The translations under genes and the position numbers were made by a program. Below, piece after piece: positions 2,992 through 18,597 of a DNA stretch of 64,000 bases (positions are counted from its first letter, which is position 1; the number at the start of each line of letters is the position of its first letter). The stretch covers positions 1 through 64,000 of the forward strand of contig NZ_JAFZKX010000012.1 of NCBI RefSeq assembly GCF_017551775.1. Reading direction: 5' to 3'. This DNA is from Fibrobacter sp. Lineage in GTDB: Bacteria; Fibrobacterota; Fibrobacteria; Fibrobacterales; Fibrobacteraceae. The notes under the pieces were generated by a model. That model made no database searches, was not told where the DNA came from, and saw nothing but the letters and a program-made list of their open reading frames with translations.

Positions 2992-3010
2992 GGTTCTGAA
3001 TAGTCCTTTG

Positions 3011-3109
3011 GAACACAAAATTTGCGTTTTTAAGCTAATTTTACCATTTTTTGCATTTTTTCAAAGATTTTCAATATCTAGAACACAAAACCTGTGTCCC
3101 CAGGACACA
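3011..3109 (-). promoter_or_regulatory. Operator-like half-sites GAACACA, cassette A
   Basis: A half-site GAACACA (3011-3017) sits 33-39 bases upstream of the ATG, where a -33 element would be. A second copy is at 3081-3087. It is followed by an inverted repeat TGTGTCC-3 bases-GGACACA (3093-3109). A further 7-3-7 inverted repeat, TGTATTC/GAATACA, lies at 3157-3173. Cassettes B and C have the same geometry. Binding by the adjacent TIGR02147 protein is inferred. Confidence 0.55.
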
Positions 3110-3113
3110 AGAA

Positions 3114-3146
3114 AACGGCGATTGAGGCACAAGGCCGCAATGACAA
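3114..3146. repeat. REP-like intergenic hairpin, copy 1
   Basis: The block ACGGCGATTGAGGCACAAGG and the bases after it resemble 6711-6744 in the next intergenic region. It can fold as an imperfect stem around an ACAAG loop (ATTGAGGC against GCCGCAAT). Function is unknown. Confidence 0.5.
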
Positions 3147-3174
3147 CGGCAATCCTTGTATTCTAAGAATACAG

Positions 3175-3207
3175 AAAACCCCGCGGCATTTCGTCCGCGG
3201 GGGCTTT
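3175..3207 (-). terminator. Rho-independent terminator of the 3227-5722 gene
   Basis: A GC-rich stem (CCCCGCGG against CCGCGGGG, about 8 bp) is followed on the minus strand by a short T run. It lies 20 bases after the stop codon. Confidence 0.75.
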
Positions 3208-3226
3208 CAAGGCGCAACCACTAAAA

Positions 3227-5722
3227 TTAATCCTTAAGGCATCGAATAGACATTCCATCATCCTTATCGTGATCGAGCAGGCGGGCATTATCGTAGCCGG
3301 CGTACAAGTTCACGTAGCTCGCGTTGTCGCTATTCTTCTCTATAGAACTCCAGAAGTTCGCGTGATCGCCCAAATAGTTGTAGTAGGCGCCTTCACCGTA
3401 CCAGATGCCGGCAGGCAATGCAGTAAACGAGTAATCATCTGTACCGTTGCCGTCATCGTTCCAGCCGCTCGTCGATTTGAGCTTTTGGGCCGCTGTAGAT
3501 TGACCTCCGACCGCATCAAACAACGTTTTAAATTCATCTATTGTCGGCAGGTGCCAGCTCTCAGGGCAAGCATTCATCGCTGCGGCCCAGGTGTACAGCC
3601 GACCATACGTTGCACAATATTCAGTAGAATCTTTATAGCAGTAACTACTGTCCATTTCATAGTTCAGGTTCTCCGCCATCCACTCTTGGCCACCAACCTT
3701 TACGGTCTTGTATGTCTGACCGTCGCGGGCGTCCGTCAAAGTACCGTATTTACTTTTGTCCTTTACGCAACGGACCGACATTCCATCGCCCTTATCGTGA
3801 TCGAGCATGCGCGCATTATCGTAGCCAGCATACAAGTTCATGTAGTTCGCGTTGTCGCTATTCTTCTCTATAGAACTCCAGAAGTTTGCGTGATCGCCCA
3901 AGTAGTTGTAGTATTCGTCTTTACCATACCAGATGCCGGCAGGCAACGCAGTAAACGAGTAATCATCTGTACCGTTGCCGCCATTATTCCAGCCGGTCAT
4001 CGATTTGAGCTTTTTGCCCGCTGTAGACTGACCTCCGACCGCATCGAACAACGCTTCAAATTCATCTGTTGTCGGTAGGTGCCAGCTTTCAGGGCATGCT
4101 CTATTCGCCTCAGCCCATGTGTAAAGGCGACCGTACGTTGCACAATATTCAGCGGAATCTTTATAGCAGTAACTACTGTCCATTTCATAGTTCAGGTTTT
4201 CCGCCATCCACTCCTGGTCACCAATCGTTATGGTCTTGTATGTCTGGCCGTCGCGGGTGTCCGTCAAAGTACCGTATTCACGCTTGTCCCTTACGCAACG
4301 GACCGACATTCCATCGTCCTTATTGTGGTCGAGCATGCGGGCATTATCGTAGCCGGAGTACAAGTTCATGTAGTTCGCGTTACCGCTATTCTTCTCTATA
4401 GAACTCCAGAAGTTCGCATGATCGCCCAAGTAGTTGTAGTATTCGTCTTGACCGTACCAGATGCCAGCAGGCAACGCCGAGAACAAGAAATCATCCGTGC
4501 CATTGCCGTTATTATTCCAGCCGCTCGTCGATTTAAGTTTTTTGGCCGCCGTAGATTGGCCGCCGACCGCAGTGAACAACGTATCAAATTCATCTGTTGT
4601 CGGCAGGTGCCAGCCTTCAGGGCATGCTTCATTCGCAGCAGCCCATGTGTAAAGGCGACCGTACGTTGCACAATATTCAGCGGAATCTTTATAGCAGAAA
4701 CTACCGTCTATTTCATAGTTCAGGTTCTCCGCCATCCATACCTGTTCGCCAATCTTTACAATCTTGTATGTCTTGCCATCGCGGGTGTCCGTCATGGTAA
4801 GGTTTTCAGCCGGCAAACCGGCCTTAGGCTTTTCAGATTCAGGAATTACATCCTGATTTTGAGCCGATGAATCGGCCCCAAAATTTTCAACAACCTTTTC
4901 AAATTCAGGAATTTCATCGGATCCACTCCACCTCGACAGGTTTTTGCGGACAGATTCAAATTTGCCATCGCCCTTGGCCGCACTCGCCCAATCCGACATT
5001 TCCGTTTTCGTCTTTTCATCGTTCCATTCGCCAGTCTTCGCGATAGACGAAGCGACGGCATCCATTCGGTCTGTCAAATCCTTGGCATCCAAATCCGATT
5101 GCAACAGCACACTCGTCGCAAGGAGTGCCGAGTTTCCATCGCCCTTTTCATAAATGCTCAAGCCTTCGAACGACTCAAAGAGATCCGTTATACCTAACGA
5201 GGCAAGGACTTCCTTTTCAGCCTGTTTTTTCGCATCGGCAAAGGACATTTTTTCTTTAGAGACAAGATTCATCACTCGCTCGTATTCCAATTCCGTAAGC
5301 ACGTTGATATTAACAGTCTCCCTGTCACTCAAATCCGTGAGCGCATGGAGCGTCAACTTTTCCGAAGATTTTTCACCAGTAAATTCATTGAGGTAATAAC
5401 CGGAAACAGTGAACAAAACACAAGATGCCGAGAAGTTCACATCGTCAATGCCAAAGTCGCCCTTGTCGCTATTGACCTTTCCCGTGAATTGCTCGTTCGT
5501 GTATTTCATCGTCTTGCAGTCAACTCCCTGCGCAGTCACCTCAGAACCCTTCACGAACGGGCCCTTTTGCGCCAAGCCAGCCACATCCAGGTTGGCGACA
5601 ATACCCTTGTCTTCTGTAATACCGCCCGAAATACTCTTGTTTTCGGAATCGGAACATGCGGCCAGCATAGCCAACGCGCCAACAAACGCAATAGCCGAAC
5701 TATTCTTGATTATACTCTTCAT
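3227..5722 (-). CDS. Lipoprotein with three tandem FISUMP domains
   Basis: This protein has 831 residues when started at 5722. The ATG overlaps the TGA of the upstream TIGR02147 gene as ATGA; an in-frame start 48 bases further upstream would lie inside that gene and break the signal peptide. The signal ends in lipobox LAAC before SDSENK. Residues about 25-290 are the shared QKGPF region. Residues about 307-831 are three nearly identical 176-residue FISUMP units, each with WMAENLNYE, CYKDS, YCATYGRLYTW, CPE.WHLPT, ALPAGIWYG, NFWSSIEKNS and MS.RC..D. The conserved Cys pairs suggest disulfides in an exported domain. Near-identity of the units at DNA level implies recent duplication or gene conversion. 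Confidence 0.9.
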   Translation of the reverse strand: MKSIIKNSSAIAFVGALAMLAACSDSENKSISGGITEDKGIVANLDVAGLAQKGPFVKGSEVTAQGVDCKTMKYTNEQFTGKVNSDKGDFGIDDVNFSASCVLFTVSGYYLNEFTGEKSSEKLTLHALTDLSDRETVNINVLTELEYERVMNLVSKEKMSFADAKKQAEKEVLASLGITDLFESFEGLSIYEKGDGNSALLATSVLLQSDLDAKDLTDRMDAVASSIAKTGEWNDEKTKTEMSDWASAAKGDGKFESVRKNLSRWSGSDEIPEFEKVVENFGADSSAQNQDVIPESEKPKAGLPAENLTMTDTRDGKTYKIVKIGEQVWMAENLNYEIDGSFCYKDSAEYCATYGRLYTWAAANEACPEGWHLPTTDEFDTLFTAVGGQSTAAKKLKSTSGWNNNGNGTDDFLFSALPAGIWYGQDEYYNYLGDHANFWSSIEKNSGNANYMNLYSGYDNARMLDHNKDDGMSVRCVRDKREYGTLTDTRDGQTYKTITIGDQEWMAENLNYEMDSSYCYKDSAEYCATYGRLYTWAEANRACPESWHLPTTDEFEALFDAVGGQSTAGKKLKSMTGWNNGGNGTDDYSFTALPAGIWYGKDEYYNYLGDHANFWSSIEKNSDNANYMNLYAGYDNARMLDHDKGDGMSVRCVKDKSKYGTLTDARDGQTYKTVKVGGQEWMAENLNYEMDSSYCYKDSTEYCATYGRLYTWAAAMNACPESWHLPTIDEFKTLFDAVGGQSTAAQKLKSTSGWNDDGNGTDDYSFTALPAGIWYGEGAYYNYLGDHANFWSSIEKNSDNASYVNLYAGYDNARLLDHDKDDGMSIRCLKD
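3230..4814 (-). repeat. Three tandem 528-bp repeats encoding FISUMP domains
   Basis: Matching landmarks recur exactly 528 bases apart (GATCGAGCA at 3271 and 3799, the variant GGTCGAGCA at 4327). The period is 176 codons, so unit gain or loss would stay in frame. Confidence 0.9.
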
Positions 5723-6576
5723 GATCTCTTCCTTTTTTTTGACGTAACCCTTTCTTTTTGTTTTAAGCACTCACTTATCGGAAACAACTGCATGTTCAAT
5801 CGGTACACTTGATCCGTATCGTCGTCTTCGGAAACAATTGCCATAATGCGGCGGCGACAATCAGCAAGTTCCTGCTTGATGCGTTCGTAAGAGCGACGCG
5901 TGATTCCCATGGTAAGGCCCGACATGTCGCGCTCCGATTGCGGGAAACTGAGCGATTTAATCGCAAGTTCACCCATTTGGCGTTGCAAATCGCGCGCCGC
6001 GATTGGTACCGCATCTACATCGCCAATAGAAACCGCTTTTTCGGTCTGCAAAAAATTTCCCTTAGCGTCTTTTTTCAAGAGCTTCGCACGCAGTAAAAAA
6101 TCCAGCGTCTCGGAGACCTCGGCCGCAGTAATCGCCGGCCTACAGGCTTTCGCCATTTCAAGCGGCTTTGCCCCCGGCATGTGCGGAGCGATTTCACGAA
6201 GCAACTGATTTTTCCACGATTTAAAATACTTGTACTCTTCTGCGCCCAGCACGCGCACCTTATGCGCCCTCGCAAGCGCACACCTTTTCTCGAACGCCGC
6301 AGTTTTTTCTGCGTCCCCTTTTGCATGCGCATACGAAACCATCAGCACAAAGTACGTATGTTCAAACCCAGCGAGCCCCATGGCATTTGCAACAGAACCA
6401 GCGGCACCCACACTCAAGCTCTTTTTCCCTTCACAAACATACTTCAGATAAACTGCCGACGAAAAGCCCGCCTTTTGAGCAAAATCCCGCCAGGTAAACG
6501 ACGAACTGCGCTTACGTTCGTCGTAATAGTCCTGAATAAACTTGCGGTAATCGGAGTATTCTATGATTGCTTTCAT
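5719..6576 (-). CDS. TIGR02147 family HTH-like protein (cassette B)
   Basis: This 285-residue protein is a close paralog of the cassette A protein, with an HTH-like segment FTWRDFAQKAGFSSAVYLKY and the same residues (SSAV) at the likely recognition helix. The frame stays open to 6768, but that extension is hydrophobic and unlike any paralog. The ATG at 6576 aligns with the family start (MKAIIEYSDYRKF) and follows TATATTTG by five bases. The C-terminus is Lys/Arg-rich (KKRKRS). Its TGA overlaps the lipoprotein ATG by four bases (ATGA), so translation of the two is probably coupled. DNA binding is inferred. Confidence 0.85.
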   Translation of the reverse strand: MKAIIEYSDYRKFIQDYYDERKRSSSFTWRDFAQKAGFSSAVYLKYVCEGKKSLSVGAAGSVANAMGLAGFEHTYFVLMVSYAHAKGDAEKTAAFEKRCALARAHKVRVLGAEEYKYFKSWKNQLLREIAPHMPGAKPLEMAKACRPAITAAEVSETLDFLLRAKLLKKDAKGNFLQTEKAVSIGDVDAVPIAARDLQRQMGELAIKSLSFPQSERDMSGLTMGITRRSYERIKQELADCRRRIMAIVSEDDDTDQVYRLNMQLFPISECLKQKERVTSKKRKRS

Positions 6577-6581
6577 GATTA

Positions 6582-6589
6582 CAAATATA
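6582..6589 (-). promoter_or_regulatory. TATATTTG -7 box, cassette B
   Basis: The minus strand reads TATATTTG followed by five bases and the ATG, the same spacing as in cassettes A, C and F. Confidence 0.6.
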
Positions 6590-6607
6590 GCCAAATAACA
6601 CATTTTA

Positions 6608-6706
6608 GAACACAAATTTGGCGATTTTATTCTAATTTTACCAATTTCACAAAAATTTCGAAAAATTAAGCAAAAACAAGAACACACCGTGTGTTCCAGG
6701 AACACA
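6608..6706 (-). promoter_or_regulatory. Operator-like half-sites GAACACA, cassette B
   Basis: A proximal GAACACA (6608-6614) lies 32-38 bases upstream of the ATG. A distal GAACACA (6680-6686) is followed by the inverted repeat TGTGTTC-CAG-GAACACA (6690-6706). A partial extra pair (ATGTTCC/GGAACAC) lies near 6754-6768. The half-site is the same as in cassette A, whose regulator has the same predicted recognition helix. Confidence 0.55.
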
Positions 6707-6710
6707 AAGA

Positions 6711-6744
6711 AACGGCGATCGCGGCACAAGGCCGCGATGACAAT
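6711..6744. repeat. REP-like intergenic hairpin, copy 2
   Basis: A perfect 8-bp stem, ATCGCGGC (6718-6725) and GCCGCGAT (6731-6738), closes an ACAAG loop and is preceded by AACGG and followed by GACAA. It is the cleaner copy of the element at 3114-3146. Confidence 0.6.
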
Positions 6745-6770
6745 AACAAATTCATGTTCCAGGAACACAG

Positions 6771-6803
6771 AAAAACCCCGCTAGCATCCTAGCGGGGTCT
6801 TTT
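6771..6803 (-). terminator. Rho-independent terminator of the 6826-9471 gene
   Basis: The stem CCCCGCTAG/CTAGCGGGG is followed by a T run on the minus strand. It lies about 20 bases past the stop codon. Confidence 0.8.
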
Positions 6804-6825
6804 CTCTCTCCTTATCAGGCAATCT

Positions 6826-9471
6826 TTATTCAGAAACCTTACCGTGGTCCAGTTTTTTCTTGTAATAGGTCACAATCGCGATATGATAGTAATAGTCATA
6901 ATACCAGTCGCCCAATATCACAGCATCACCATACTTAGAGGCTTCCACATCCACCGAGACATCATATTTGGCAATATCCGTCTCATAGATGTAGTAATAC
7001 TTTTTTTCAGCAGAGTCTACTTTGTCCAAGACAAATCCCTTTTCTTCCAGAACGCCTCTCAGATATTCAACACTATCTGCAAGCATTTTCAGTTTCTCTT
7101 CATCTGCCGGATCATCCATAGTCTCCGTCGTCAACCGTTTCTTATATACACTACGGTAAACATACCATAAAGTACTTTGCAAGCTGTCGTTCCAAGATAC
7201 CTTGTTCACGGATGTCGCGAAGTCCTTGAGAAAACTCATTTCTTCCGGCAATTCCGTTTCGTAGCGCATAGAGCTAAAATCCGTCGTAGGCACCTCTTCA
7301 AAACCATCCCTCAATATGACTACTTTAATATCGAAACTAATGCGATACGATGCGGCAGAATACCATTTGGTGATTGCAACCTTGTACACGACATTCCCGT
7401 CTTTTTTCTGGTATACATACGACGTGTCGTCATATATTTTATCCAAAGAATCGTTCTTTACGCTATTTTCGAAAGCAAAGCCCTTCTTTCCCAACGTTTC
7501 CACAAGAGCCGATATCGCGGAATCCCTAATACTTCCAGAATCAAATCCCTTCGCAGGGCTGAAGAGCCATACTTCCTGCTTACCGTCTCCATAGCTGACA
7601 TAACCATTTCTTACGTAAGCCGAATCCAAGAACGACAGCGGCTGCGGCACAGCCTTGACAGCACCTTCCGCGAACGGGTTGTAGATGGAACTCGACGAAG
7701 CAACGCCAGAAGAGCTCGATTCAACATCAGATTCACCAGAGGTTTTCCTCTTCTTGCCTTCACCCTTAACACAACGTACAGACGCATAATGCAGTTCCGT
7801 CACATACATACCAGTATAAGCGTAGGGCAACGGTTTTTGTTTAAAGAGCAACGCCAAGGGGCCGTCAAACGAATACATCATTATATAATTCGGTTCAGTA
7901 ATCGTCGCCGTCCACAAATACGTAAGCGAATCCAAGCCTATGCATCCCTCTCCCGTACGGCACACCCCCGCACCGATAATATCCAGTCCGAACTTGTTCG
8001 AGGCGTTCAGTTTTTCGTGATAATCATCCCAGTCATACGGCAGCAAACTGGAACTCAAACTTTCTCCGTCGCCGTATTTCTCGGCAAACGCAAAGAGCGT
8101 ATCCCATTCAGCCTCTTCAGGAACATGCCAGCCATCGGGACACACTCCCTGACGGGGGTGGAAATCGCTGCGAAGCCTCAAATTGCTCAATCCCCTTTCA
8201 AACGCCTGCTCCGTAGTGTCCAGGACCTGCACCAAATTATACAGGCGCCCAAACTTTTTGCAGTTTTCACTGTTGTCGCCATAGCACATGCTACCTTCAA
8301 CCGCATAGTTCAGGTTTTCGGCCATCCACTCTTGCGAGCCCAATTTAACAGTCTTATAAACTTTCCCATCACGGGCATCCGTAAGCGTGCCAAAAACGGG
8401 TTCTCCCGATTCACTTGACGAACTGGCATCACCCTGAGAACTCATCGAAGAACTCGACTCCGGTTCGTCACCCGGAATATGCCAGCGGCCCTTTTCGCAC
8501 ACGAAGTATTCGTTGTACAATGCGCTGAGCTTGTTTATGTTGCGCTTGGTCTCGTTTTCACGTTTGTCATTGCAAACGCCGAGTCCATAATTTTCCCACC
8601 AGAAGTTGGACACGTACTTTTCGAATGCGGGCACGGTATCGGCGTACTTCCAGTCTTCCACGTTCTTGCGCACCTTCGAAAGCGAGCCCTTCAAGTCAAC
8701 ATCGCAAGCCCAGTCCGCAATCGCGGCCTTGGTGTCGGCATCGTCCCAGCTGCCGCCTTCCGCAAGCGAGATGCTAAACTCGCCAATGCGCTCGGTAAGC
8801 CCCGCCACATCCACGTTGCTCTGCATCAATACGCTCACCGCGAGCAGCGCCGCATTCCCGTCGCCCGACTCGAAGATGTTCAGGTCTTCGGATTCGCCGA
8901 AGTCCCCCTCGATCCCGAACGAAGCCAGAATTTCTCTTTCCGCCTGCGCCTTCGCATCGGCGATGGACATCTTCTTCTTGGAAACCAGGTACATCACGCG
9001 TTCGTATTCCAGGTGCGTGAGCAAGTTGATGTTCACCTTTTTCCTGTCGCTCAAATCCGTCAGCGCCCGCAGCGTCACCGTACCCGAAGACTTCTTGCCA
9101 GAAATCTCGTCGCGATAATAACCGTTCGCTTCGAGAATCGCATACTGCGATTTCAAATCGATGTCCTTGATAGCAAAGTCACCCTTGTCGCTCTTGATGG
9201 AACCCTTGAAGCTCTTGCCGGTCTGTTTGAGCGTAATGCCGTCCAGTTCCTGCACGGTCACCGCGGAACCCGTAACGAACGGGCCCTTCTGCGAAACACC
9301 GGCCACTTCCCTGTCCTCGACCGCGATAATGCCCGAATCGCCCGAAGCGCCGCCAACGATGTCCTTGCCATCCGATTCGCCATCGGAACACGCCCAGAAC
9401 ATGGCCCCCGCCGCAAGGCACCCCAAAACTCGATTCCACTTCATAATCGACCTCTTTTTGCACTTTTTCAT
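6826..9471 (-). CDS. FISUMP-domain lipoprotein (cassette C)
   Basis: This 881-residue protein has a lipoprotein signal ending FWAC. The start at 9471 has a GGGAG Shine-Dalgarno; an alternative ATG at 9444 with AGAGG would give a shorter signal. Residues about 40-330 form the shared region (AGVSQKGPFVTGS, VNINLLTHLEYERVMYL, GDGNAALLAVSVLMQ). A Ser-rich linker at about 339-358 leads into one FISUMP domain (about 360-575). The last 280 residues have no family I recognise: two similar halves with repeated SVEYLRGVLEEKGF-like and SALVETLGKKGF-like segments, rich in Tyr and Lys. The gene starts 14 bases after the regulator gene ends. Confidence 0.85.
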   Translation of the reverse strand: MKKCKKRSIMKWNRVLGCLAAGAMFWACSDGESDGKDIVGGASGDSGIIAVEDREVAGVSQKGPFVTGSAVTVQELDGITLKQTGKSFKGSIKSDKGDFAIKDIDLKSQYAILEANGYYRDEISGKKSSGTVTLRALTDLSDRKKVNINLLTHLEYERVMYLVSKKKMSIADAKAQAEREILASFGIEGDFGESEDLNIFESGDGNAALLAVSVLMQSNVDVAGLTERIGEFSISLAEGGSWDDADTKAAIADWACDVDLKGSLSKVRKNVEDWKYADTVPAFEKYVSNFWWENYGLGVCNDKRENETKRNINKLSALYNEYFVCEKGRWHIPGDEPESSSSMSSQGDASSSSESGEPVFGTLTDARDGKVYKTVKLGSQEWMAENLNYAVEGSMCYGDNSENCKKFGRLYNLVQVLDTTEQAFERGLSNLRLRSDFHPRQGVCPDGWHVPEEAEWDTLFAFAEKYGDGESLSSSLLPYDWDDYHEKLNASNKFGLDIIGAGVCRTGEGCIGLDSLTYLWTATITEPNYIMMYSFDGPLALLFKQKPLPYAYTGMYVTELHYASVRCVKGEGKKRKTSGESDVESSSSGVASSSSIYNPFAEGAVKAVPQPLSFLDSAYVRNGYVSYGDGKQEVWLFSPAKGFDSGSIRDSAISALVETLGKKGFAFENSVKNDSLDKIYDDTSYVYQKKDGNVVYKVAITKWYSAASYRISFDIKVVILRDGFEEVPTTDFSSMRYETELPEEMSFLKDFATSVNKVSWNDSLQSTLWYVYRSVYKKRLTTETMDDPADEEKLKMLADSVEYLRGVLEEKGFVLDKVDSAEKKYYYIYETDIAKYDVSVDVEASKYGDAVILGDWYYDYYYHIAIVTYYKKKLDHGKVSE

Positions 9472-9485
9472 GAGAATTTCTCCCT

Positions 9486-10319
9486 TTAAAATCCTTTTTT
9501 ATTTCCCAGGCGTTCGCTCATCGGGAAGAGTTGCATGTTCAGACGGTACACGCGATCGGCCTCGTCTTCTTCGGTGGCAATCGCCACGACGCGCCGATAG
9601 AAATCCTTCATTTCCTTTTTTATCCGTTCGTAAGCACGATCCGTGAGGCCAAGCGTGTAGCCCGACATGACTCGCTCCGAAAGCGGCAGGTTCAACGACT
9701 GCACGGCAAACTCCCCCATTTGCCGTTGCAAGTCGCGAGCCGCCACCGGCACCGCATCCACGTTCCCCATCACGATGGCCTTGTCCGTCTGCACGTAGTT
9801 TCCACTCCTGTCCTTCTTCAGGAGTTTCGCCTTCACCAAGAAGTCAAGCGTTTCGGAAACTTCCGTCGCCGAGATTTTCTGTTTGCAGGCGCGGGCCATT
9901 TCGAGCGGTTTCGCCCCCGGCATGTGCGGAGCCAATTCGCGGATCACCGAATTCTTCCACGATTTGTAGTAATCGAACTCTTCCTTCCCGAGCACTCGAA
10001 TCTTGTGCGCCTGCGCGAGCGCGCAACGCTCCTCGAATGCGGCCCGCTTGGCGGAATCGCTCTTGGCGTGCGCATAAGACACCATCAAGATAAAGTAATC
10101 GTACTCGAAACCGACCAGCCCCATGGCGGTCGCCACCGAGCCCGCCGACGCGACGCTCAAATTCTTTTTCCCTTCGCAAACGTACTTCAGGTAGACATCC
10201 GAAGAGAAGCCCGCCTTCTGGGCAAATGCGTGCCAAGAAAACGCCGAGCAGCGCTTGCGTTCATCGTAGTAGTCCTGGATGAACTTGCGATAATCTGTAT
10301 ATTCAACGATTTCCTTCAT
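9486..10319 (-). CDS. TIGR02147 family HTH-like protein (cassette C)
   Basis: This 277-residue protein starts at the ATG at 10319, which aligns with the family start (MKEIVEYTDYRKF); the open frame upstream to 10415 reads through promoter sequence. The HTH-like segment is FSWHAFAQKAGFSSDVYLKY. It differs from cassettes A and B by Ala to Asp in the likely recognition helix, and the upstream half-site differs too (GAACATG rather than GAACACA). The C-terminal YRLNMQLFPMSERL motif is retained. It is followed after 14 bases by the lipoprotein gene. A regulatory role is inferred. Confidence 0.85.
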   Translation of the reverse strand: MKEIVEYTDYRKFIQDYYDERKRCSAFSWHAFAQKAGFSSDVYLKYVCEGKKNLSVASAGSVATAMGLVGFEYDYFILMVSYAHAKSDSAKRAAFEERCALAQAHKIRVLGKEEFDYYKSWKNSVIRELAPHMPGAKPLEMARACKQKISATEVSETLDFLVKAKLLKKDRSGNYVQTDKAIVMGNVDAVPVAARDLQRQMGEFAVQSLNLPLSERVMSGYTLGLTDRAYERIKKEMKDFYRRVVAIATEEDEADRVYRLNMQLFPMSERLGNKKGF

Positions 10320-10324
10320 GGTAT

Positions 10325-10332
10325 CAAATATA
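10325..10332 (-). promoter_or_regulatory. TATATTTG -7 box, cassette C
   Basis: The minus strand reads TATATTTG with five bases (ATACC) to the ATG at 10319. Confidence 0.6.
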
Positions 10333-10351
10333 GGTCTATTTTCACAAAATA

Positions 10352-10450
10352 GAACATGAAATTTGCGTTTTTGAGCAAATTTTACCACTTTTTGCGTTTT
10401 TTCAAAAAATTTCACATTTTAGAACATGAACGTCATGTTCCAAGAACATG
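10352..10450 (-). promoter_or_regulatory. Operator-like half-sites GAACATG, cassette C
   Basis: A proximal GAACATG (10352-10358) lies 33-39 bases upstream of the ATG. The distal cluster is GAACATG (10422-10428), then CATGTTC-CAA-GAACATG (10434-10450). All four half-sites share the TG ending that distinguishes them from the CA ending in A and B. A conserved AT-rich stretch (AAATTTGCG...TTTTACCA) separates proximal from distal sites in A, B and C. Confidence 0.6.
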
Positions 10451-10470
10451 GCCAAAAAACGGCAACACGG

Positions 10471-10506
10471 AAAAAGCGCCCCCCGTTGTAGCGGAGAACG
10501 CTTTTA
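10471..10506 (-). terminator. Terminator of the 10534-12459 gene
   Basis: An imperfect stem (AAAGCG..CTCCG against CGGGG..CGCTTT) is followed by a T run on the minus strand. Confidence 0.6.
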
Positions 10507-10533
10507 GATTATAGGAGAAATACTTTTTATACC

Positions 10534-12459
10534 CTACTCGAGTTCGGCATACTTGTCGCAACTGCCGTTGTAAGGGCCGAAGGCCTTTATGTTGAACGAA
10601 CCCGTCGTACCGGCGTCGCCGCTGAGTTCGAGCCTAAGCTCAGACGTTTTCTGCACCGACGCTTCGTACGAAGCATAAGATTTTGACCACGAAGGCACCG
10701 TAAACGAAGCCCAGGGAATCCTTTCGACGCGTACCGTATCCGAAAGGGGAAGCTCATATTGAGCATAGGCGTAATCAGGAACCACCGTTATCGGCGCTAC
10801 AATCAGGACGCTCATTTTTACCGTGGAGCTGTACGCGACGCACACGCCTCCGAAATTCGACACGTCGAAACCATCCGCCAGCGTTATTCCCGACGGGTCC
10901 CAGACCAAGGAGAAACCGATCTCCACATAAGGATACTCGACACCATCACCGAACGTCACGTCGCCACAGAAGCCCTTGCACGTATCGATAACGTCATTCA
11001 GCCAGTTCGCATCGGAAGTATCAACGGTGGCATGCCAGCTGATGAACGAAGTTCCCCTGTCGTAATCCCCGTCTTTCACCACGTACCACGCAGAAGGATT
11101 CTCGGAGAAAGCGTGGTAAATCGAATCAGAGCCGTCGGCACCAAACCAGGTCTGCATCGATTTCAAGCCGATAAACTTGGAATTCGTGCAAACATATTCC
11201 AGGCGGGACTTGGCGCCGATTATGGTATCCCCTTCGACACACGTCTTGCCCACGACATCGTAATCAAAGGTCCTGGCAACGTCCCAATCCCCTTCCTTGC
11301 ACACGTAGCCGCCAACAATCGTCAAAGGCATAGCCGCGGTACATCCGGCTCCGAGTTCACGTTCCATTTCAGTCGCCTCGCGCCACTTTCCGCCATCATA
11401 GACATACTTGTTCAAGGAATCGACCTGGCCGGCACGAAATTCGCCTTCGTCACCAGCGCTGAAGTTCTTGGTATCGGACTGCAGGTTGCTAGCCTTGATC
11501 CAAGCGCCGCTTTCGCATACATAACGCGCGCCCGATTTCCCGTAATAACGCTCGCTAAATTCGTTGCTGTCCACCGCTATTTCGCCCTCGCGGGATTCGG
11601 TGCAGGCGGTAAGCCCGTAAGCATCGTACCAGAAATTGCGCACATGCGTGATGAAGTCGGGAACCTCGCCTTCGTTCCATTCGCTCAGTTCCTGCATGAT
11701 ATCTACGAGCAATCCCGAATTATCGGCTTCGGCCGCCCAGTCAGCCATCGCGGCCTTGGTCTTCGCATCGTCCCACACGCCTTCCGCGGCAAGGGACATG
11801 CTGAAGGCGCCCATGCGTTCGGAAAGTCCGGCCACATCGACACCGCCCTGCATCAACACGCTCACCGCAAGGAGGGCCGCATTCCCGTCACCCGCAGTAA
11901 ATATGTTCAGGTCTTCGGGATTCGCGAATTGGACATCGATACCAAAGGCAGCGAGGATTTCGGATTCCGCCTGCGCCTTCGCTTCAGCAACGGTCTTGCC
12001 CTTTTCCAGCACAAGGTTCATCACGCGTTCATATTCCAGATGCGTGAACAGGTTGATATTCACCGTATTGCGGTCGGAAAGGTCGGTAATGGCGCGGAGA
12101 GACACCGGTCCCGAAGACTTGCTCCCGCTGATTTCGCTCCAGAAGTAGCCGGTAGCTTCGAGCATCGCATACTGCGAGACGAGATTAATCCCGTTGATGG
12201 AGAAATCGCCCTTGTCACTCTTGATGCTGCCCCTGAAACTCTTGCCCGTCTGGTTCAGCGTAATGCCGTCAAGTTCCTGCACCGTCACCACCGAACCCGT
12301 CACGAACGGGCCCTTCTGCGAAACACCCGCGACCTTCCAATTCTGGACCGGGACTATTCCCTCGCTTTCCTCGCTAACGCCACCGAGCTTGCCATCTGAA
12401 CAAGCCATAAATGACGTGCATACCGAAATAGCGCACAATAATTTTGTTACGCGATTCAT
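10534..12459 (-). CDS. Cassette D lipoprotein, no FISUMP domain
   Basis: This 641-residue protein has the signal MNRVTKLLC... with lipobox FMAC. The N-terminal 300 residues carry the shared region (AGVSQKGPFVTGS, VNINLFTHLEYERVM, GDGNAALLAVSVLMQG). The middle has short Cys-containing repeats of the type YVCE.GAW / YVCKEGDW. The last 230 residues are a beta-rich module (YVEIGFSLVWDP, FGGVCVAYSS) reminiscent of galactose-binding jelly-roll modules; carbohydrate binding is a guess. The ATG is three bases past the regulator's stop codon and has an AGGAG upstream within the regulator's last codons. Confidence 0.8.
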   Translation of the reverse strand: MNRVTKLLCAISVCTSFMACSDGKLGGVSEESEGIVPVQNWKVAGVSQKGPFVTGSVVTVQELDGITLNQTGKSFRGSIKSDKGDFSINGINLVSQYAMLEATGYFWSEISGSKSSGPVSLRAITDLSDRNTVNINLFTHLEYERVMNLVLEKGKTVAEAKAQAESEILAAFGIDVQFANPEDLNIFTAGDGNAALLAVSVLMQGGVDVAGLSERMGAFSMSLAAEGVWDDAKTKAAMADWAAEADNSGLLVDIMQELSEWNEGEVPDFITHVRNFWYDAYGLTACTESREGEIAVDSNEFSERYYGKSGARYVCESGAWIKASNLQSDTKNFSAGDEGEFRAGQVDSLNKYVYDGGKWREATEMERELGAGCTAAMPLTIVGGYVCKEGDWDVARTFDYDVVGKTCVEGDTIIGAKSRLEYVCTNSKFIGLKSMQTWFGADGSDSIYHAFSENPSAWYVVKDGDYDRGTSFISWHATVDTSDANWLNDVIDTCKGFCGDVTFGDGVEYPYVEIGFSLVWDPSGITLADGFDVSNFGGVCVAYSSTVKMSVLIVAPITVVPDYAYAQYELPLSDTVRVERIPWASFTVPSWSKSYASYEASVQKTSELRLELSGDAGTTGSFNIKAFGPYNGSCDKYAELE

Positions 12460-12462
12460 CTT

Positions 12463-13317
12463 CTATCTCCTTTTGTTATCCAGGCCCATTCCGCCCCGTT
12501 TAATGTTTTCCGTCAGCGGGAAAAGCTGCATGTTCAAGCGGCAGACTTTTTCCGGTGATTCTTCCGCATCCGCGATCGACACGATACGCTTGCGGCATTC
12601 AGCAAGTTCTTCTACAATTTTTGCGTAGGTCTTTTCGGACACCCCCATGGTAAGGCCGCTGAAGTGGCGATCCGAAATCGGGAGCTTGTCAAGGGCGTCG
12701 ACAGCGAACTCGCTCATCTCGCGCAGCAGCGAATGCACCGCCGCGGCAACCACGTTCAGGCGACCCGTCGAAAGCAAGCCGTTTGTCTGGTGGTAGAACC
12801 CCTTGATATCCCTAGTCAGGAGCCCGGCCTTCAGGAGGAACCGGAGGCTCGCGGTGACATCGTTCGCCGAGATGGGCGGGCGGCACGCCCTCGCAATCTC
12901 GTGCGAAGTCGCGCCCGGCATCATCGGAGCCAGTTCGCGAATCACCGAGTATTTCCAGCTCTCGTAATAGGCATACATGTCGCTGCCCAGGACCTTCACG
13001 TTATGAGCGATGCACAGCGACTGCATCTCTTCGAAGAACTTCTTCTTCTGCAATGCGGTCTTGGCATTCTCGTAACAGACCATGAGAATAAAATATTCGT
13101 ACTCGAAGCCGAGCAGCCCCATGGCAACCGCGGTCTTCTTCGCCCCCTCCTCGAGGAGCCGCGTCTTGCCGTCGCAAACGAGCTTCAAGTACGAACCCGA
13201 AGCGAAACCCGCAAGTTTCGCAAATTCACGCCACGTGAAGGCAGAACAGCGTTTGCGTTCGTTGTAGTAGTCCAGCACGTATTCGCGATAGTCTTTGTAT
13301 TCGATAACCGATTTCAT
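12463..13317 (-). CDS. TIGR02147 family HTH-like protein (cassette D)
   Basis: This 284-residue protein starts at the ATG at 13317 (MKSVIEYKDYREYVLDYY); the 16 codons upstream have no family match. It belongs to a second subgroup with cassette E: HTH-like segment FTWREFAKLAGFASGSYLKL, then VCDGKTRLLEEGAKKTA in place of the KKNLS..AAGSVA of subgroup A-C. The C-terminal CRLNMQLFPLTENI motif is intact. The upstream half-site is ATGCAAC, matching cassette E. No perfect TAnnTTTG box is present; TTATTTTG, eight bases before the ATG, is the nearest. Confidence 0.85.
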   Translation of the reverse strand: MKSVIEYKDYREYVLDYYNERKRCSAFTWREFAKLAGFASGSYLKLVCDGKTRLLEEGAKKTAVAMGLLGFEYEYFILMVCYENAKTALQKKKFFEEMQSLCIAHNVKVLGSDMYAYYESWKYSVIRELAPMMPGATSHEIARACRPPISANDVTASLRFLLKAGLLTRDIKGFYHQTNGLLSTGRLNVVAAAVHSLLREMSEFAVDALDKLPISDRHFSGLTMGVSEKTYAKIVEELAECRKRIVSIADAEESPEKVCRLNMQLFPLTENIKRGGMGLDNKRR

Positions 13318-13349
13318 CTTGATAACAAAATAAATTATTATCTTCTCGG

Positions 13350-13356
13350 ATGCAAC
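13350..13356 (-). promoter_or_regulatory. Operator-like half-site ATGCAAC, cassette D
   Basis: ATGCAAC lies 33-39 bases upstream of the ATG at 13317, the same offset as the proximal half-sites in A, B and C, and the same sequence as the half-sites of cassette E. I see no clear distal copy. Confidence 0.45.
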
Positions 13357-13484
13357 AGTTTTCAAAAAACAAAAACGCCATTTTTAAGCAAATTTCAACG
13401 TTTTTAAATGTAAAATTAATTTTTTGTGTTTGATAAAAAACAAAATGACATTCATATAAAACAAAGTAGTTTTTTCGCTTGTAC

Positions 13485-13516
13485 AAAAAAAAGACCCCGC
13501 CATAAAGGCGGGGTCA
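13485..13516 (-). terminator. Terminator of the 13577-15100 gene
   Basis: The stem GACCCCGCC/GGCGGGGTC with a 5-base loop is followed by eight T residues on the minus strand. Confidence 0.85.
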
Positions 13517-13576
13517 TCCCTCCGTCCCTAATCCCGTCCGCAACCCCGCGGACAGATCAGGGCAATACGATACAAC

Positions 13577-15100
13577 TTAGTCCTTCACGCAGCGCAAACC
13601 CAAATCTGCTGTTGGCAAGTAGTCATAAGAATAATTATCCCCATTAACATTCCAAACATTGTACTCATCAAGACCATAACTATATTCTATGCCGATAAAA
13701 TAGCTGCCCGCAAACGAAGAATCAGCATCCGTCTCCCTATATTGCGGATAAACAAGCAGTTCTCTAGCTTGGTAGTCATCCTTTATAGATTCAGCCAATT
13801 TTTCCCACTCATAACTTTGCGGAATATGCCAACCATCTGGGCAGATACCCTGAAAATTTCGTTGAAAGAGTACATGGTCATTAACATCCAGCAAACGTTC
13901 ACTGATTTCCGGACCTTTAGAATCAAAGCACCCTACCGGCAGATTTACAACCTGACAATAAGTATAGTGTCTCCCCACGCCGGGAATACGGTAGACATCT
14001 CCAGTATCTCCTGGAATTTCATATTCCAAAAGATCGGCCATCCAAGTGGCGGTAGCGCCTTCTTTCAACCTAACATCCAGAGTTTTGTAAACATGCCCGT
14101 CCCTTTCGTCAATCAAGGTTCCATACCTTCCGGCCGTATCTACAGGAGCATCGCCTTCATCTCTTTGCCCCGAATAATATTTCCACACACCATCGCGACA
14201 AATGACTCGATCGTCGGCTTTTTTTAATGGCGTAATCCTCCTGACAACGTCCTGAGTCTGAGCATCGCAATCTTCCCACGTCGAATCCGAACTCCCGGCA
14301 AACTGATCTAGATACTTCTGGAAATCAGGAATCCGGATAGCACCCATGCCATATAAATTGTGACGTATTCTCTCATAAAGTCCTTTTTCTTTATGCAAGG
14401 CAGCATACCTCTTCATTTGGTCAATCATGGCGCTGTCATCCCAGACACCATCTGTTTCCAAATCCATTGCTACAGACGCCAGTCGATCCGTAATATCTCC
14501 TATATCAGCGGCTGAAGTAAGCATCAACAAAGAGATTGCCAAAAGTTTGGCATCACCTTCATTGTCGTTCAATATGTCGAGTTGTTCGAACGATTCCTGC
14601 TCATTAGCAAATCCGAACGCATCCATCACCTCCTTCTCGGCCTGCCGTTTCGCCTCGTCAATGGATTTCCCCGCTTTGACCAGGTAACGAATTCGATCGA
14701 ACGACAAATGAGTCAAGACGTTGATGTTGACTTGATCGGTTTTCTGCAAGTCAACAAGACCATTCAGAGAAAGTTTCCATTTAGACGTATCTCCAGTTAT
14801 TTCGTTTATGTAATAACCGTTCGCATTAAGCCAAGCATAGCGTTCATCCAAAGGAATCTTTTTCAAAGTATACTTTCCTTGGTTGTTATCTATTGTTGTT
14901 GAAAAATGCGAGCCTGTTTGGTACAATTTTTCATCCATGCCATAAAGGGTGACTTCGGTCCCATTTACGAAAGGCCCCTTTTGCGAAGTTCCGGAGATAG
15001 TTCTTGTAGATTCCGTCGGTTCGGAACCTGTTTGGCTGCATGCAGTCAGGATGGAGCCCACCGCAAGCAGAGTGAAAATGCAATTCAATTTTTTAGACAT
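13577..15100 (-). CDS. FISUMP-domain lipoprotein LP2', module copy 2
   Basis: This 507-residue protein starts at the ATG at 15100, which follows a GGGGG Shine-Dalgarno and aligns with the start of the paralog at 17619. The signal has lipobox LTAC (CSQTGSE). The shared N-terminal region is at about 30-250 (ISGTSQKGPFVNGTEVTLYG, VNINVLTHLSFDRIRYL, GDAKLLAISLLML). A divergent FISUMP domain lies at about 320-507 (DERDGHVYKTLDV, TWMADLLEYE, CPDGWHIPQ, LGLRCVKD). The gene begins one base after the LP1 stop codon. It is a sister of 15976-17619 from a module duplication. Confidence 0.85.
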   Translation of the reverse strand: MSKKLNCIFTLLAVGSILTACSQTGSEPTESTRTISGTSQKGPFVNGTEVTLYGMDEKLYQTGSHFSTTIDNNQGKYTLKKIPLDERYAWLNANGYYINEITGDTSKWKLSLNGLVDLQKTDQVNINVLTHLSFDRIRYLVKAGKSIDEAKRQAEKEVMDAFGFANEQESFEQLDILNDNEGDAKLLAISLLMLTSAADIGDITDRLASVAMDLETDGVWDDSAMIDQMKRYAALHKEKGLYERIRHNLYGMGAIRIPDFQKYLDQFAGSSDSTWEDCDAQTQDVVRRITPLKKADDRVICRDGVWKYYSGQRDEGDAPVDTAGRYGTLIDERDGHVYKTLDVRLKEGATATWMADLLEYEIPGDTGDVYRIPGVGRHYTYCQVVNLPVGCFDSKGPEISERLLDVNDHVLFQRNFQGICPDGWHIPQSYEWEKLAESIKDDYQARELLVYPQYRETDADSSFAGSYFIGIEYSYGLDEYNVWNVNGDNYSYDYLPTADLGLRCVKD

Positions 15101-15101
15101 A

Positions 15102-15911
15102 TTAATTTCCCCCAAATTCGGATTGTACAAGCATCGGCATCATTGCGTTAATCAGATCAGAGCCCTTCCCATCGAGAATATCGAAGAAATCATCCAAGAA
15201 CTCTTGTACTCGCAAGCAATACTCCAAAGAAGCGCAATGATCGTCATCAAGGCAGTTTGATGCATAAAAGAAAGAATTGAGATCCATAAAGCTGCTGATT
15301 TTCTCCAAAGCCCTATCAGCTTCTCCGTCACCGGTGACATCCAGGCTTTCCGATTTACCTTCATCTACAAGATATTCGAAATTAAAGAATCGCATCAATT
15401 CCCTATGGGCCTGCTTTTTAGCTTCGTCAAACGAGTTCCCTTTCTTGACGAGTTCAAGCGTACGATCGTATTCTAGATGAGTAAGGATATTGATGTTTAC
15501 GCGATCCGTCTTGCTTAGGTCCGCCAAAGCATTCAGGCTTATCTGGCATTCCGAATTTTCACCCGTTGTTTCTCTTTTGTAGTAACCCGTCGCGGTCAAC
15601 CTGACGTACTGACTTTCCAAATTGAGGCCATCAATCTGGAAATCGCCATCGTTGCTGCGGGTCATCGCAAAGAACTCCCTGCCGGTAGGTTTCAAGTTTC
15701 CCGCCTTGGAAGTCTCCTTGAGAACAACGCTGGAACCCCTGACAAAAGGCCCCTTCTGCGCCACGCCCGCGACATCCTTGTCCTTAAGCGCGACAATGCC
15801 CTCGGCCTCTTCGCTCGTGCCGGCGGTCGTATCCAAGCAAGCACAGAGCAGAGAGCCCATAGCCGCCGCCAATAAAAACCTTTTCAACTTCATATTATTG
15901 TGCCTAATCAT
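15102..15911 (-). CDS. Lipoprotein LP1 (shared N-terminal region only), module copy 2
   Basis: This 269-residue lipoprotein (lipobox LCAC) is made almost only of the QKGPF region (AGVAQKGPFVRGS, VNINILTHLEYDRTLELV, VTGDGEADRALEKISS). The C-terminus (EYCLRVQEFLDDFFDILDGKGSD) replaces FISUMP. The start at 15911 is preceded by GGAGA and overlaps, as ATGA, the stop of a relic of a TIGR02147 gene. A deleted paralog of this gene survives at 17630-17740. Role unknown; it may partner the FISUMP protein encoded immediately downstream. Confidence 0.8.
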   Translation of the reverse strand: MIRHNNMKLKRFLLAAAMGSLLCACLDTTAGTSEEAEGIVALKDKDVAGVAQKGPFVRGSSVVLKETSKAGNLKPTGREFFAMTRSNDGDFQIDGLNLESQYVRLTATGYYKRETTGENSECQISLNALADLSKTDRVNINILTHLEYDRTLELVKKGNSFDEAKKQAHRELMRFFNFEYLVDEGKSESLDVTGDGEADRALEKISSFMDLNSFFYASNCLDDDHCASLEYCLRVQEFLDDFFDILDGKGSDLINAMMPMLVQSEFGGN

Positions 15912-15961
15912 ATTTCATTCTCCTTTCCAAATGAGTCTGAACTGTAATTCAATTCTTTCAT
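15908..15961 (-). pseudogene. Relic 3' end of a TIGR02147 gene
   Basis: The 17-residue frame MKELNYSSDSFGKENEI, followed by TGA, aligns with the last residues of the cassette E regulator (EKLNCGSESSEKENKK). The matching DNA includes the AAGGAGAA run and the ATGA overlap with the next gene. The rest of the regulator is gone; FISUMP gene LP2 ends at 15976, just upstream. I read it as the remains of the second regulator copy after tandem duplication of the whole module. Confidence 0.7.
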
Positions 15962-15975
15962 AATCCAGGTACAGC

Positions 15976-17619
15976 CTAGTCCTTCACGCAGCGCAAGCCG
16001 AAATGTTGATCTTGATATCTTTCAAAATACAAATCGGAAGTTTCTTCAATCCGGATATAAGAACTAGTGCATCTACATGTAAAATCCACACCAAAACCAT
16101 GAATTACAAACTCGTGGGTAACAAACTCACGGGGATAATCATACCCGGGGAATTCACGCTCACTGATACTATAGTTATCCCTAAAACCCACCGTATACAT
16201 ATTTACACCTAAAGAAACGTCTGTTTCCGGATCAACATATTGTGACAGGACCAATAATTCCGCAACCTCCCAACGGTATCCATCCGAAATAAAATCAAAC
16301 AGCTCAATCCATTCACGATCTATAGGAATATGCCAACCATCAGGACAGATGCCTTGAATTTTTTCTTTACCAAATATACGATCGTTCATTTCAGAGTCCA
16401 ATTCCACACAAGAACCATTATCACTTCGTCCTAAAATCTGACATGGCGAATATTCTCGGCCTACTCCAGGTATATATTTATAATCACCTTTGCTGCTCTT
16501 GGGTTCATATTCCAAAAGATCGGCCATCCAAGTGACCACACGACCGTCATCCAGTTCAACGTCCAAGGTCTTATAGACACGCCCATCCCTTTCATCCACT
16601 AAGGTACCATACTTTCCCGCCGTATCGACAGGACTCATGCCTGCCACCCTTATTCCGTTATAGTATTTCCACACACCATCTCGACAAATAGCTTTAGACG
16701 ATGGTTCATAAGGACGCTCGCTAAGAACGAGAGTATTCTTAACTTCATTCTGATTACTGCAACTATCCCACGTCGAATCCCAAGAGGACGCAAACTGTAT
16801 GAGGTACTTTCGGAAATCGGATATTTCCGTCGCCCCCATCTTCCGTATATTCCAGCGGATCTGTTCATAAACACCTTTATGCGCAAGCATCGAGGCAATA
16901 TCCTTCAATTCGCGAACAAGGACCGTATCATCGCAAACGCCATCTGTTTCCAAATCCAATGCGAGCCATGCCATAAATTCTGCGACATCGCCAACATTGC
17001 CTTTAAAACGCATTATCAAGGAAATCGCCAAAAGTTTGGCGTCGCCTTCGCCACCGCTAAGAATGTCAAGCTGTTCGAAAGACTCGCCTTCTCCCGAAAA
17101 TCCGAAGACGTCCAGTACCTCCCTTTCTGCCTGCCGTTTCGCTTCTTCAACGGATTTCCCTTCATCTACCAAGTAGAGAATTCGATTGAATGACAAATGA
17201 GTCAAGACGTTAATGTTGACCTTATCTGTATTCTGCAAGTCCACCAGGCTATTCAACAAAATCGTTCGTTCCGATTTCTTTGCAGTATATTCATCAATAA
17301 AATATCCATTCGCATTGAGCCAGGCGTAGCGTTCCTCCAAGGGAATCTCTTGCAAGGAAAACTTCCCTTGATCGTTGTCTATTATTGTCGAGTAGCGCGA
17401 ACCTGTTTGGTGCAATGTCTCATCCATGCCATAAAGGGTGACTTCGGTACCCTTTACGAAAGGCCCTTTTTGCGAAGTTCCGGAGACGGTTCTTGTAGAT
17501 TCCGAAGTTCCGGAGACGCTTCTTGTAGATTCCGACGCTTCGGAACCCATTTGGCTGCATGCAGTCAGGATGGCGCCCACTGCAAGCAGAGAGAAAATGC
17601 AATTCTTTTTTCTAGACAT
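15976..17619 (-). CDS. FISUMP-domain lipoprotein LP2, module copy 1
   Basis: This 547-residue protein starts at 17619 (MSRKKNCIF), after GAGGG; an ATG at 17643 would overlap the LP1 remnant. Lipobox LTAC is followed by a duplicated stretch (SESTR.VSGTS twice), absent from the sister protein, then the shared region (SQKGPFVKGTEVTLYG, VNINVLTHLSFNRILYL). The C-terminal FISUMP domain has DERDGRVYKTLDV, TWMADLLEYE, CPDGWHIP and FGLRCVKD, with an insertion just before the last motif that contains CRC. It is most similar to 13577-15100. Confidence 0.85.
   Translation of the reverse strand: MSRKKNCIFSLLAVGAILTACSQMGSEASESTRSVSGTSESTRTVSGTSQKGPFVKGTEVTLYGMDETLHQTGSRYSTIIDNDQGKFSLQEIPLEERYAWLNANGYFIDEYTAKKSERTILLNSLVDLQNTDKVNINVLTHLSFNRILYLVDEGKSVEEAKRQAEREVLDVFGFSGEGESFEQLDILSGGEGDAKLLAISLIMRFKGNVGDVAEFMAWLALDLETDGVCDDTVLVRELKDIASMLAHKGVYEQIRWNIRKMGATEISDFRKYLIQFASSWDSTWDSCSNQNEVKNTLVLSERPYEPSSKAICRDGVWKYYNGIRVAGMSPVDTAGKYGTLVDERDGRVYKTLDVELDDGRVVTWMADLLEYEPKSSKGDYKYIPGVGREYSPCQILGRSDNGSCVELDSEMNDRIFGKEKIQGICPDGWHIPIDREWIELFDFISDGYRWEVAELLVLSQYVDPETDVSLGVNMYTVGFRDNYSISEREFPGYDYPREFVTHEFVIHGFGVDFTCRCTSSYIRIEETSDLYFERYQDQHFGLRCVKD
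17474..17533 (-). repeat. 30-bp tandem duplication within LP2
   Basis: Two copies of a 30-base unit beginning GAAGTTCCGGAGACG lie head to tail and differ at one base. They add ten residues between the lipobox and the QKGPF motif. The sister gene has a single unit. Confidence 0.85.
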
Positions 17620-17629
17620 ACTAATACCC

Positions 17630-17740
17630 TCAAATCTTTTCATCTATAAGTATCGGCAACACTATAACAGACACATCAGGACCTTTTCCATCAAGAATCT
17701 CGAAAAAAGTATTCAACTTCATATTATTCTGCCTAATCAT
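17630..17740 (-). pseudogene. LP1 remnant with large in-frame deletion, module copy 1
   Basis: A 36-residue open frame joins the first ten residues of LP1 (MIRQNNMKLN; LP1 has MIRHNNMKLK) directly to its C-terminal tail (TFFEILDGKGPD; LP1 has FFDILDGKGSD). About 230 codons, including lipobox and the QKGPF region, are missing. The ATG still overlaps the TGA of the upstream TIGR02147 gene as ATGA, and the following LP2 gene starts ten bases after the stop. It may still be translated and carry ribosomes to LP2. Confidence 0.75.
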
Positions 17741-18597
17741 TTTTTGTTCTCCTTCTCCGATGATTCTGAACCGCAGTTCAACTTTTCCGTAATCGGGAAA
17801 AGCTGCATGTTCAAGCGATACACTTTTTCTACGTCCTTATATGCCGACACGAGCGAAACGATGCGCTTGCGGCACTGAGAAAGTTCTTCCACGACCTTTT
17901 CGTAGCTTTCGGCGTTGACGCCCATGGTAATTCCGCTAAAATGCCGCTCCGAAATAGGCAAATTGTCCAACGCATCAAGCGCGAATTCGCCCATCTGGCG
18001 CAACAGCGAATGCACCGCCACGGAGACGACCTTCAGGCGACCCGTCGTAAGCGACAACGTCGTCTGGTGGTAAACGCCCTTCACATCCTTCATCAGGAAC
18101 CCAGCCTTCACAAGGAAGCGCAAACTGTCGCAGACATCGGCTGCCGAAATCGGCAAGCGGCACGCCTTTGCAATCTCGTGAGGCTTCGCTCCCGGCATCG
18201 CCACAGCCAACTCACGGACGACGGAATGCTTCCAGGTCTCATAGAAGGTGTAGAACTCGCTCCCGAGAATTTTCACATGGTGCGAAGAACTCAGGGCCTC
18301 CATTTCCTCGAAGCACTTTTTCTTCTCACGGTCCGTCTTCGCGCTTTCGTAGCGCACCATCAACATAAAATAGTCGTACTCGAAGCCGATCAACCCCATT
18401 GCGAGTGCGGTTTTCTTCGCACCTTCCATACGAAGCCGCGTTTTTCCATCGCCAACAAGCTTCAAGTACGACCCCGCCGCGAATCCAGCGTTCTTCGCGA
18501 ATTCACGCCACGTAAACGCCGAAGTGCGTTTGCGTTCACGGTAGTATTCCAACACATACTCGTGGTAATCTTTATACTGAACAATTGATTTCATCAT
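17737..18597 (-). CDS. TIGR02147 family HTH-like protein (cassette E)
   Basis: This 286-residue protein may start at the ATG at 18597 or the next at 18594. It is the closest paralog of the cassette D protein: FTWREFAKNAGFAAGSYLKL, DGKTRLRMEGAKKTA, YRLNMQLFPITEKL. One Cys in the HTH region conserved in A-D and F (VCDGK or VCEGK) is Gly here (VGDGK). It heads the longest cassette: LP1 remnant, LP2, regulator relic, LP1, LP2'. The TGA overlaps the ATG of the LP1 remnant. Confidence 0.85.
   Translation of the reverse strand: MMKSIVQYKDYHEYVLEYYRERKRTSAFTWREFAKNAGFAAGSYLKLVGDGKTRLRMEGAKKTALAMGLIGFEYDYFMLMVRYESAKTDREKKKCFEEMEALSSSHHVKILGSEFYTFYETWKHSVVRELAVAMPGAKPHEIAKACRLPISAADVCDSLRFLVKAGFLMKDVKGVYHQTTLSLTTGRLKVVSVAVHSLLRQMGEFALDALDNLPISERHFSGITMGVNAESYEKVVEELSQCRKRIVSLVSAYKDVEKVYRLNMQLFPITEKLNCGSESSEKENKK

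Follow-up and report, generated by a model that had tools for sequence, protein, structure and literature searches.

Between a regulator gene and a lipoprotein gene of a rumen Fibrobacter genome lies a reading frame of 36 codons whose two ends belong to a much longer surface-lipoprotein gene, LP1. The question raised by this locus is whether the short frame, referred to here as the stub, is merely what a deletion left behind or has been retained by selection as a translational link between its neighbours. We examined it within the window, the whole analysed stretch of 64,000 nucleotides of contig C12 of genome G000, a draft in 114 contigs. With a probability of roughly 0.6, the stub is what an in-frame deletion left of the first, redundant LP1 gene in an operon that had two. 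Such a deletion product is ordinary and may still hand ribosomes on.

Organization of the locus

The stub is part of an operon-like run on the minus strand, which proceeds from a TIGR02147 regulator through the stub, LP2a, a copy of the regulator 3' end, LP1b and LP2b to a hairpin. The run is surrounded by a tandem array of more regulator-lipoprotein pairs, and five more regulators in the window also match TIGR02147. Its features, in the order of transcription, are the following.

17737..18597, minus strand: REG, TIGR02147 family regulator of clade A, with a -4 nt overlap with the stub
17630..17740, minus strand: the stub (mini-ORF), 36 codons, LP1 5' end fused in frame to the LP1 C-terminal tail
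17712..17740, minus strand: LP1-derived 5' segment of the stub, 29 nt, up to TTGAA at the join; 28 nt identical to LP1b
17630..17714, minus strand: LP1-derived C-terminal tail of the stub; nearest relative, the intact LP1 of genome G091
17627..17631, minus strand: GAGGG, Shine-Dalgarno-like, for LP2a, overlapping the stub stop codon; read from the sequence
15976..17619, minus strand: LP2a, FISUMP-domain lipoprotein, by profile match
15912..15965, minus strand: non-coding copy of the regulator 3' end, 54 nt, 39/54 nt identical, marking a cassette duplication
15102..15911, minus strand: LP1b, intact lipoprotein of 269 aa with a lipobox and a GTSEEAEG tag
13577..15100, minus strand: LP2b, FISUMP-domain lipoprotein, by profile match
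13493..13515, minus strand: terminator-like hairpin 3' of LP2b, probable operon end, by consensus match only

REG scores 268 bits against the TIGR02147 model (curated cut-off 50). LP2a and LP2b reach 65.8 and 63.6 bits against the FISUMP model TIGR02145 (curated cut-off 41.65), and both score under the gathering threshold of Pfam PF09603. The start region of LP2a contains a 30-bp unit repeated 2.1 times (17473-17535 of the window), which lengthens the post-cysteine linker of the protein.

The translation of the stub is MIRQNNMKLNTFFEILDGKGPDVSVIVLPILIDEKI. Having lost the signal peptide, the lipobox and the tag, the stub as translated cannot be a lipoprotein. A functional micropeptide, in which the 36 residues would act as such, is hardly conceivable: the frame is open and its start overlaps the regulator, but the peptide matches no Pfam or NCBIfam family and has no stand-alone homologue in 80 genomes, and its substitution pattern is uninformative.

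The stub as a probable remnant of LP1

Aligned at base level with LP1b (15102-15911), the stub (17630-17740) gives a significant match at both ends, the first observation in favour of a deletion. Its 5' end shares 28 of 29 nt with LP1b, and the 28 codons of its 3' end align without gaps to the C-termini of LP1b and G091 LP1. The initial annotation, which described the first LP1 codons as fused in frame to the C-terminal tail with about 230 codons gone, is thus borne out; counted on LP1b, the join removes 230 codons, from residue 9 to residue 239. A DNA search with the stub recovers two tails, that of LP1b at E 2.1e-9 and that of the intact G091 LP1 at E 3.1e-20, the latter match showing 77% identity over 127 nt and extending into LP2. 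G091 is a F. succinogenes MAG (isolate RUG11683), whose contig C3 corresponds to CACXXH010000003.1. That the closest intact tail occurs in a genome whose LP2 also resembles LP2a favours the deletion as well, as may the short imperfect repeat at the join. The stub and the LP1b 5' end read TTGAA there, and the LP1b and G091 tails read TTGGA at the corresponding site; measured on these relatives rather than on the parent sequence, the repeat amounts to 3 nt exact, or 5 nt with one mismatch. The stub TGA sits three codons ahead of the usual stop of the family, and the former stop position is still TAG.

Further support comes from relatives. The order regulator, intact LP1, LP2 is present at eight loci in seven other genomes (G091, G067, G027, G030, G018, G069 and, twice, G086), so that an intact LP1 of 272-289 aa occupies the operon position of the stub, between the regulator and LP2. 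Locus L145 of G086 (3600-8439) carries regulator, LP1 and LP2 plus a second, tandem LP2. The stub itself is confined to G000. A protein search with its 36 residues at E <= 1 matched three of the 80 genus genomes, namely G000, G091 (the tail of the intact 278-aa LP1, E 4.9e-5) and G002 (a chance-level match, E 0.77), and a DNA search of the 80 genomes gave only short, weak-scoring matches outside G000 and G091. Of 154 loci, five contain the exact 30-mer spanning the join, and these are all G000 loci; no viral contig searched contained the join. The suggestion that other strains might carry the same mini-gene accordingly found no case beyond G000 among the 80 genomes.

The missing LP1 body has no second copy in G000, where the next best LP1 match is 47% identical. 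Repeat collapse in assembly usually drops a whole repeat unit. An assembly artefact, in which two similar LP1 copies were mis-joined, is very improbable: the genome is a 114-contig draft and LP1-type bodies reach 92-97% identity over long stretches, but the join links sequences sharing only 3-5 nt, and the G091-like tail is found nowhere else in the genome.

The deletion is also supported by the doubled regulator tail ahead of LP1b and by the presence of both a signal peptide and a lipobox in LP1b, neither of which the stub has. From this anatomy we infer the following order of events. The ancestral module would have consisted of regulator, LP1 and LP2. In the G000 lineage the LP1-LP2 cassette would have been doubled behind a single regulator, with a copy of the regulator 3' end before the second cassette; since that copy precedes LP1b, the cassette looks duplicated. 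The first LP1 would then have been stripped of its signal peptide, lipobox, tag and body by a deletion whose ends lay in TTG(A/G)A stretches at codons 9-10 and near codon 239. The loss would have been tolerated because LP1b, the fourth cistron with the regulator and the stub counted, still provides a complete LP1. The stub peptide is probably without function. With the frame kept, ribosomes that finish the regulator could start again at the ATGA and be released 10 nt short of LP2a, which would make the stub a passive bridge.

Substitutions in the retained sequence are of little help in detecting selection. Over the 28 tail codons pN/pS is 0.60 between the stub and G091, 0.80 between the stub and LP1b, and 0.83 between G091 and LP1b, with no contrast among the pairs. 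dN/dS was rejected as proof of selection, as only 28 codons are available and intact LP1 copies show a similar substitution pattern. The first 29 nt differ at 1 position, against 15 of 54 in the regulator tail (Fisher p 0.008); because one copy of the regulator tail is non-coding, this contrast indicates no more than past constraint on the LP1 start.

Apparent recombination of lipoprotein cassettes

Phylogenetic placement of the cassette genes complicates the deletion reading. LP2a groups with G091 LP2 (100/100), with LP2b apart, and LP1b also groups with its G091 counterpart (99/98). These groupings make a simple tandem duplication insufficient and require interspecies recombination. G091 LP2 is 81-84% identical to LP2a; locally, identity rises to 98-99% over about 400 nt and is mostly 82-95% elsewhere, a pattern which, as judged from the alignment, is a recombination mosaic. 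Much of the LP1 body is shared between G091 and G000 at 92-97% identity; the values fall between this and the LP2 stretch and at the LP1 start, and the G091 regulator belongs to a different clade, with 49% identity to REG. Locus L033 of G018 (clade B, 2828-6188) and locus L147 of G069 (clade A, 2415-5791) likewise have very similar LP1 bodies and LP2, while the LP1 start and signal peptide differ. Cassettes seem, from these comparisons, to be swapped across species and regulators, with breakpoints near the LP1 start. Locus L107 of G091 (10873-14262) is another LP1-LP2 cassette of similar body behind a regulator of another clade. The regulator at 2118-2978 of the window has 100% protein identity to that at 6233-7093 of G091 contig C115, while LP2 is only 81-84% identical; the identical regulator reflects either recent exchange or strong constraint.

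Such mobility raises the alternative of a chimeric junction, in which no full LP1 ever occupied the first position and a G091-like LP1 tail together with LP2a joined a resident LP1 at codons 9-10, the 3' end of the regulator and the 5' end of LP1 being duplicated around the incoming piece. We regard this as unlikely. The chimera agrees with the composition of the stub, whose tail, like LP2a, is G091-like and whose 5' end resembles LP1b and not the 5' end of G091 LP1, a combination that counts against a plain deletion. It agrees too with the mosaic identity of LP2a and with the movement of cassettes across regulator clades (G018, G069). Yet it also requires a join at the short imperfect repeat, plus an insertion, and the 54-nt copy of the regulator tail is 28% diverged and looks older than the near-identical LP2a stretch. 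A collapsed first LP1 and a chimeric join are not told apart with certainty; deletion is the most likely.

Spacing and possible translational coupling across the stub

ATGA overlaps are associated with translational coupling by termination-reinitiation. The overlap of the stub with the regulator, proposed in the initial annotation, is real: the regulator stop occupies 17739-17737 and the stub start 17740-17738. Its companion proposal, that the distance to LP2 has been kept, holds for the range and fails for the exact value. The stub ends 10 nt ahead of the LP2a ATG, and LP1b and G091 LP1 each end 1 nt ahead of their LP2, but at the intact-LP1 loci this distance is anywhere from about 1 to 17 nt, and the 10 nt of the stub falls inside.

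The LP2a start lies 117 nt from the regulator stop, and the frame of the join determines how much of this distance is covered: joined in frame, translation stops 10 nt before LP2a, and in the other frames it would stop 42 or 71 nt before it. For gene pairs of E. coli, an excerpt of PMC10666635 reports that +14 nt lowers reinitiation by 40-80% and +38 nt almost abolishes it, and uses -8 to +10 nt as the distance range that predicts coupling. Both distances of the stub, -4 nt and +10 nt, are inside the threshold given in that excerpt, and coupling across the stub is possible by geometry. The out-of-frame stops, at 42 or 71 nt, are past +38 nt, so the bridge would have been broken in either case.

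This geometry invites the interpretation that the stub has been kept to couple translation of the regulator to that of LP2a, the peptide being irrelevant and the positions of start, frame and stop being selected. We find this rather unlikely, and equally doubtful the general formulation of the stub as a selected "translation-only" cistron, whose product was lost and which is kept to ferry ribosomes from the regulator to LP2a. The placement of the stop 10 nt before LP2a by the in-frame join speaks for selection, but an in-frame join has a one in three chance of arising, and the gain for the bridge is accordingly threefold at most. LP2a, moreover, possesses its own Shine-Dalgarno, and the stub occurs in one genome only (1/80 genus genomes). 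The initial annotation had left open a bridge or a recent deletion; deletion is well supported, although its age is undatable, and the bridge has a possible geometry and no sign of selection. Two further candidate roles were rejected. The LP2a start is not hidden in a way that the stub would open, as its accessibility is 0.37 both here and in shuffled context, and the RNA at the stub has no special structure (fold z-score 0.06, with 101 of 200 shuffles folding equally well or better). A Rfam search at the stub gave no match.

In-frame deletion remnants occur in duplicated genes, and the stub resembles them in being a dispensable paralogue that was apparently cut down between short repeats; only its preserved operon geometry sets it apart. 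With termination-reinitiation coupling it shares the -4 nt upstream overlap, the +10 nt downstream distance and the Shine-Dalgarno over the stop. Known cases, in contrast, join functional genes, whereas the middle cistron here is a gene remnant, and its coupling is predicted. Regulatory minigenes in leaders, such as mg2 of axe-txe described in an excerpt of PMC8708949, are similarly short frames that lie just ahead of a gene and may raise its translation; they are two-codon ORFs tested by mutation, whereas the stub is a 36-codon deletion product and only a candidate for such a role. Both genes flanking the stub match the models of the TIGR02147 (Fsuc_second) regulators and FISUMP (TIGR02145) lipoproteins of Fibrobacter. 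Our literature search found no paper on operon coupling of these two families and none mentioning TIGR02147; DUF4423 was met in Bdellovibrio work. The excerpts of PMC3079729, PMC6851124, PMC4619616 and PMC4159848 contain nothing on the regulator-LP1-LP2 type of operon.

Junctions between regulators and lipoproteins

The tightness of regulator-lipoprotein junctions elsewhere bears on the selected bridge in both directions. In a survey of 80 junctions, which excluded 5 regulators that lay too close to the end of their locus and 1 that had no LP-type neighbour, the gap was at most 20 nt in 78 and exactly -4 in 24; lipoprotein starts were taken from the longest ORF, and overlaps are hence overstated. 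The two exceptions are the stub locus, a point in favour of the bridge, and locus L112 of G078, where the lipoprotein start is frameshifted at an A run (3449-3520), possibly through slippage, phase variation or sequencing error. Being frameshifted rather than displaced, L112 was excluded from the test of gap-filling frames. Among 40 junctions picked by us from a longer list and examined within 200 nt of the regulator stop, one was displaced by more than 30 nt (L178, +87). Another 57, new after removal of 24 previously counted and examined within 400 nt, included two (L250, +51; L248, +79). In 172 of the 177 junctions of the three surveys together, the lipoprotein starts at the regulator stop or no more than 30 nt away from it.

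Four junctions with an intact lipoprotein start are displaced beyond 30 nt, those of the window, L178 (G094), L248 (G100) and L250 (G004). In each of them an ORF extends from the regulator stop and comes within 14 nt of where the lipoprotein begins, which also favours the bridge. The 30-nt cut was set after the gaps were seen, and L215 (+26 nt), below the cut, has no gap-filling ORF. Shuffled sequences gave such an ORF in 53% of cases for L178, 91% for L250, 23% for L248 and 7% for the window, so that the frames at the three other junctions are not beyond chance (product 0.11). Gap-filling ORFs at displaced junctions are suggestive only. At L178, L248 and L250 gaps of 51-87 nt are filled by frames of 20-34 codons; the gap of L178 contains a sequence that resembles a dispersed intergenic repeat. 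If true, the bridge would sit in a system with near-universal tight coupling of regulator to lipoprotein and with gap-filling ORFs at other displaced lipoproteins. As a natural experiment, the stub locus can show how strict the coupling between TIGR02147 regulators and lipoproteins is in Fibrobacter, the rule being kept here only via the stub.

Lipoprotein tags and regulator clades

In the first lipoprotein, the residues that follow the lipidated cysteine form a motif that tracks the clade of the regulator, both in the window (2115-18597) and at the regulator loci: GTSEESEG-like in clade A, GGxSxDxG-like in clade B and GATTEPS-like in clade C. In the 80-junction survey the A tag occurs in 40 of 41 clade A junctions, the exception being the stub locus, and a GGxSxDxG-type tag in all 39 others. 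LP1b retains the A tag lost from the stub. The tag patterns were written after data had been seen, and the set of 40 junctions played no part in writing them. There, clade A junctions have the strict A tag in 18 of 20 cases and GTSVESEG in the remaining 2, with no B type; the non-A junctions have the strict B tag in 8 of 20 and neither pattern in 12 of 20, with no A type. The set of 57 gave the B tag in 30 of 31 clade B junctions and the A or B pattern in none of 26 clade C junctions; inspection by eye shows tags of G-x-T type there, for example GATTEPS, and the lipoproteins that bear them look dissimilar to LP1 and LP2.

The pairing of clade and tag may be explained by co-inheritance of neighbouring DNA, no function being required. 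Surface-export signals of Bacteroidetes contain acidic residues after the cysteine, and the clade tags appear, by analogy, to resemble them. The pairing, which extends to lipoproteins unlike LP1 and LP2, opens the role of TIGR02147 regulators to testing. Of the 26 lipoproteins that remained after filtering and do not immediately follow a regulator, 22 have neither the A nor the B tag and 4 have the B tag, one of the latter (L118) being a first-position gene cut at the locus edge.
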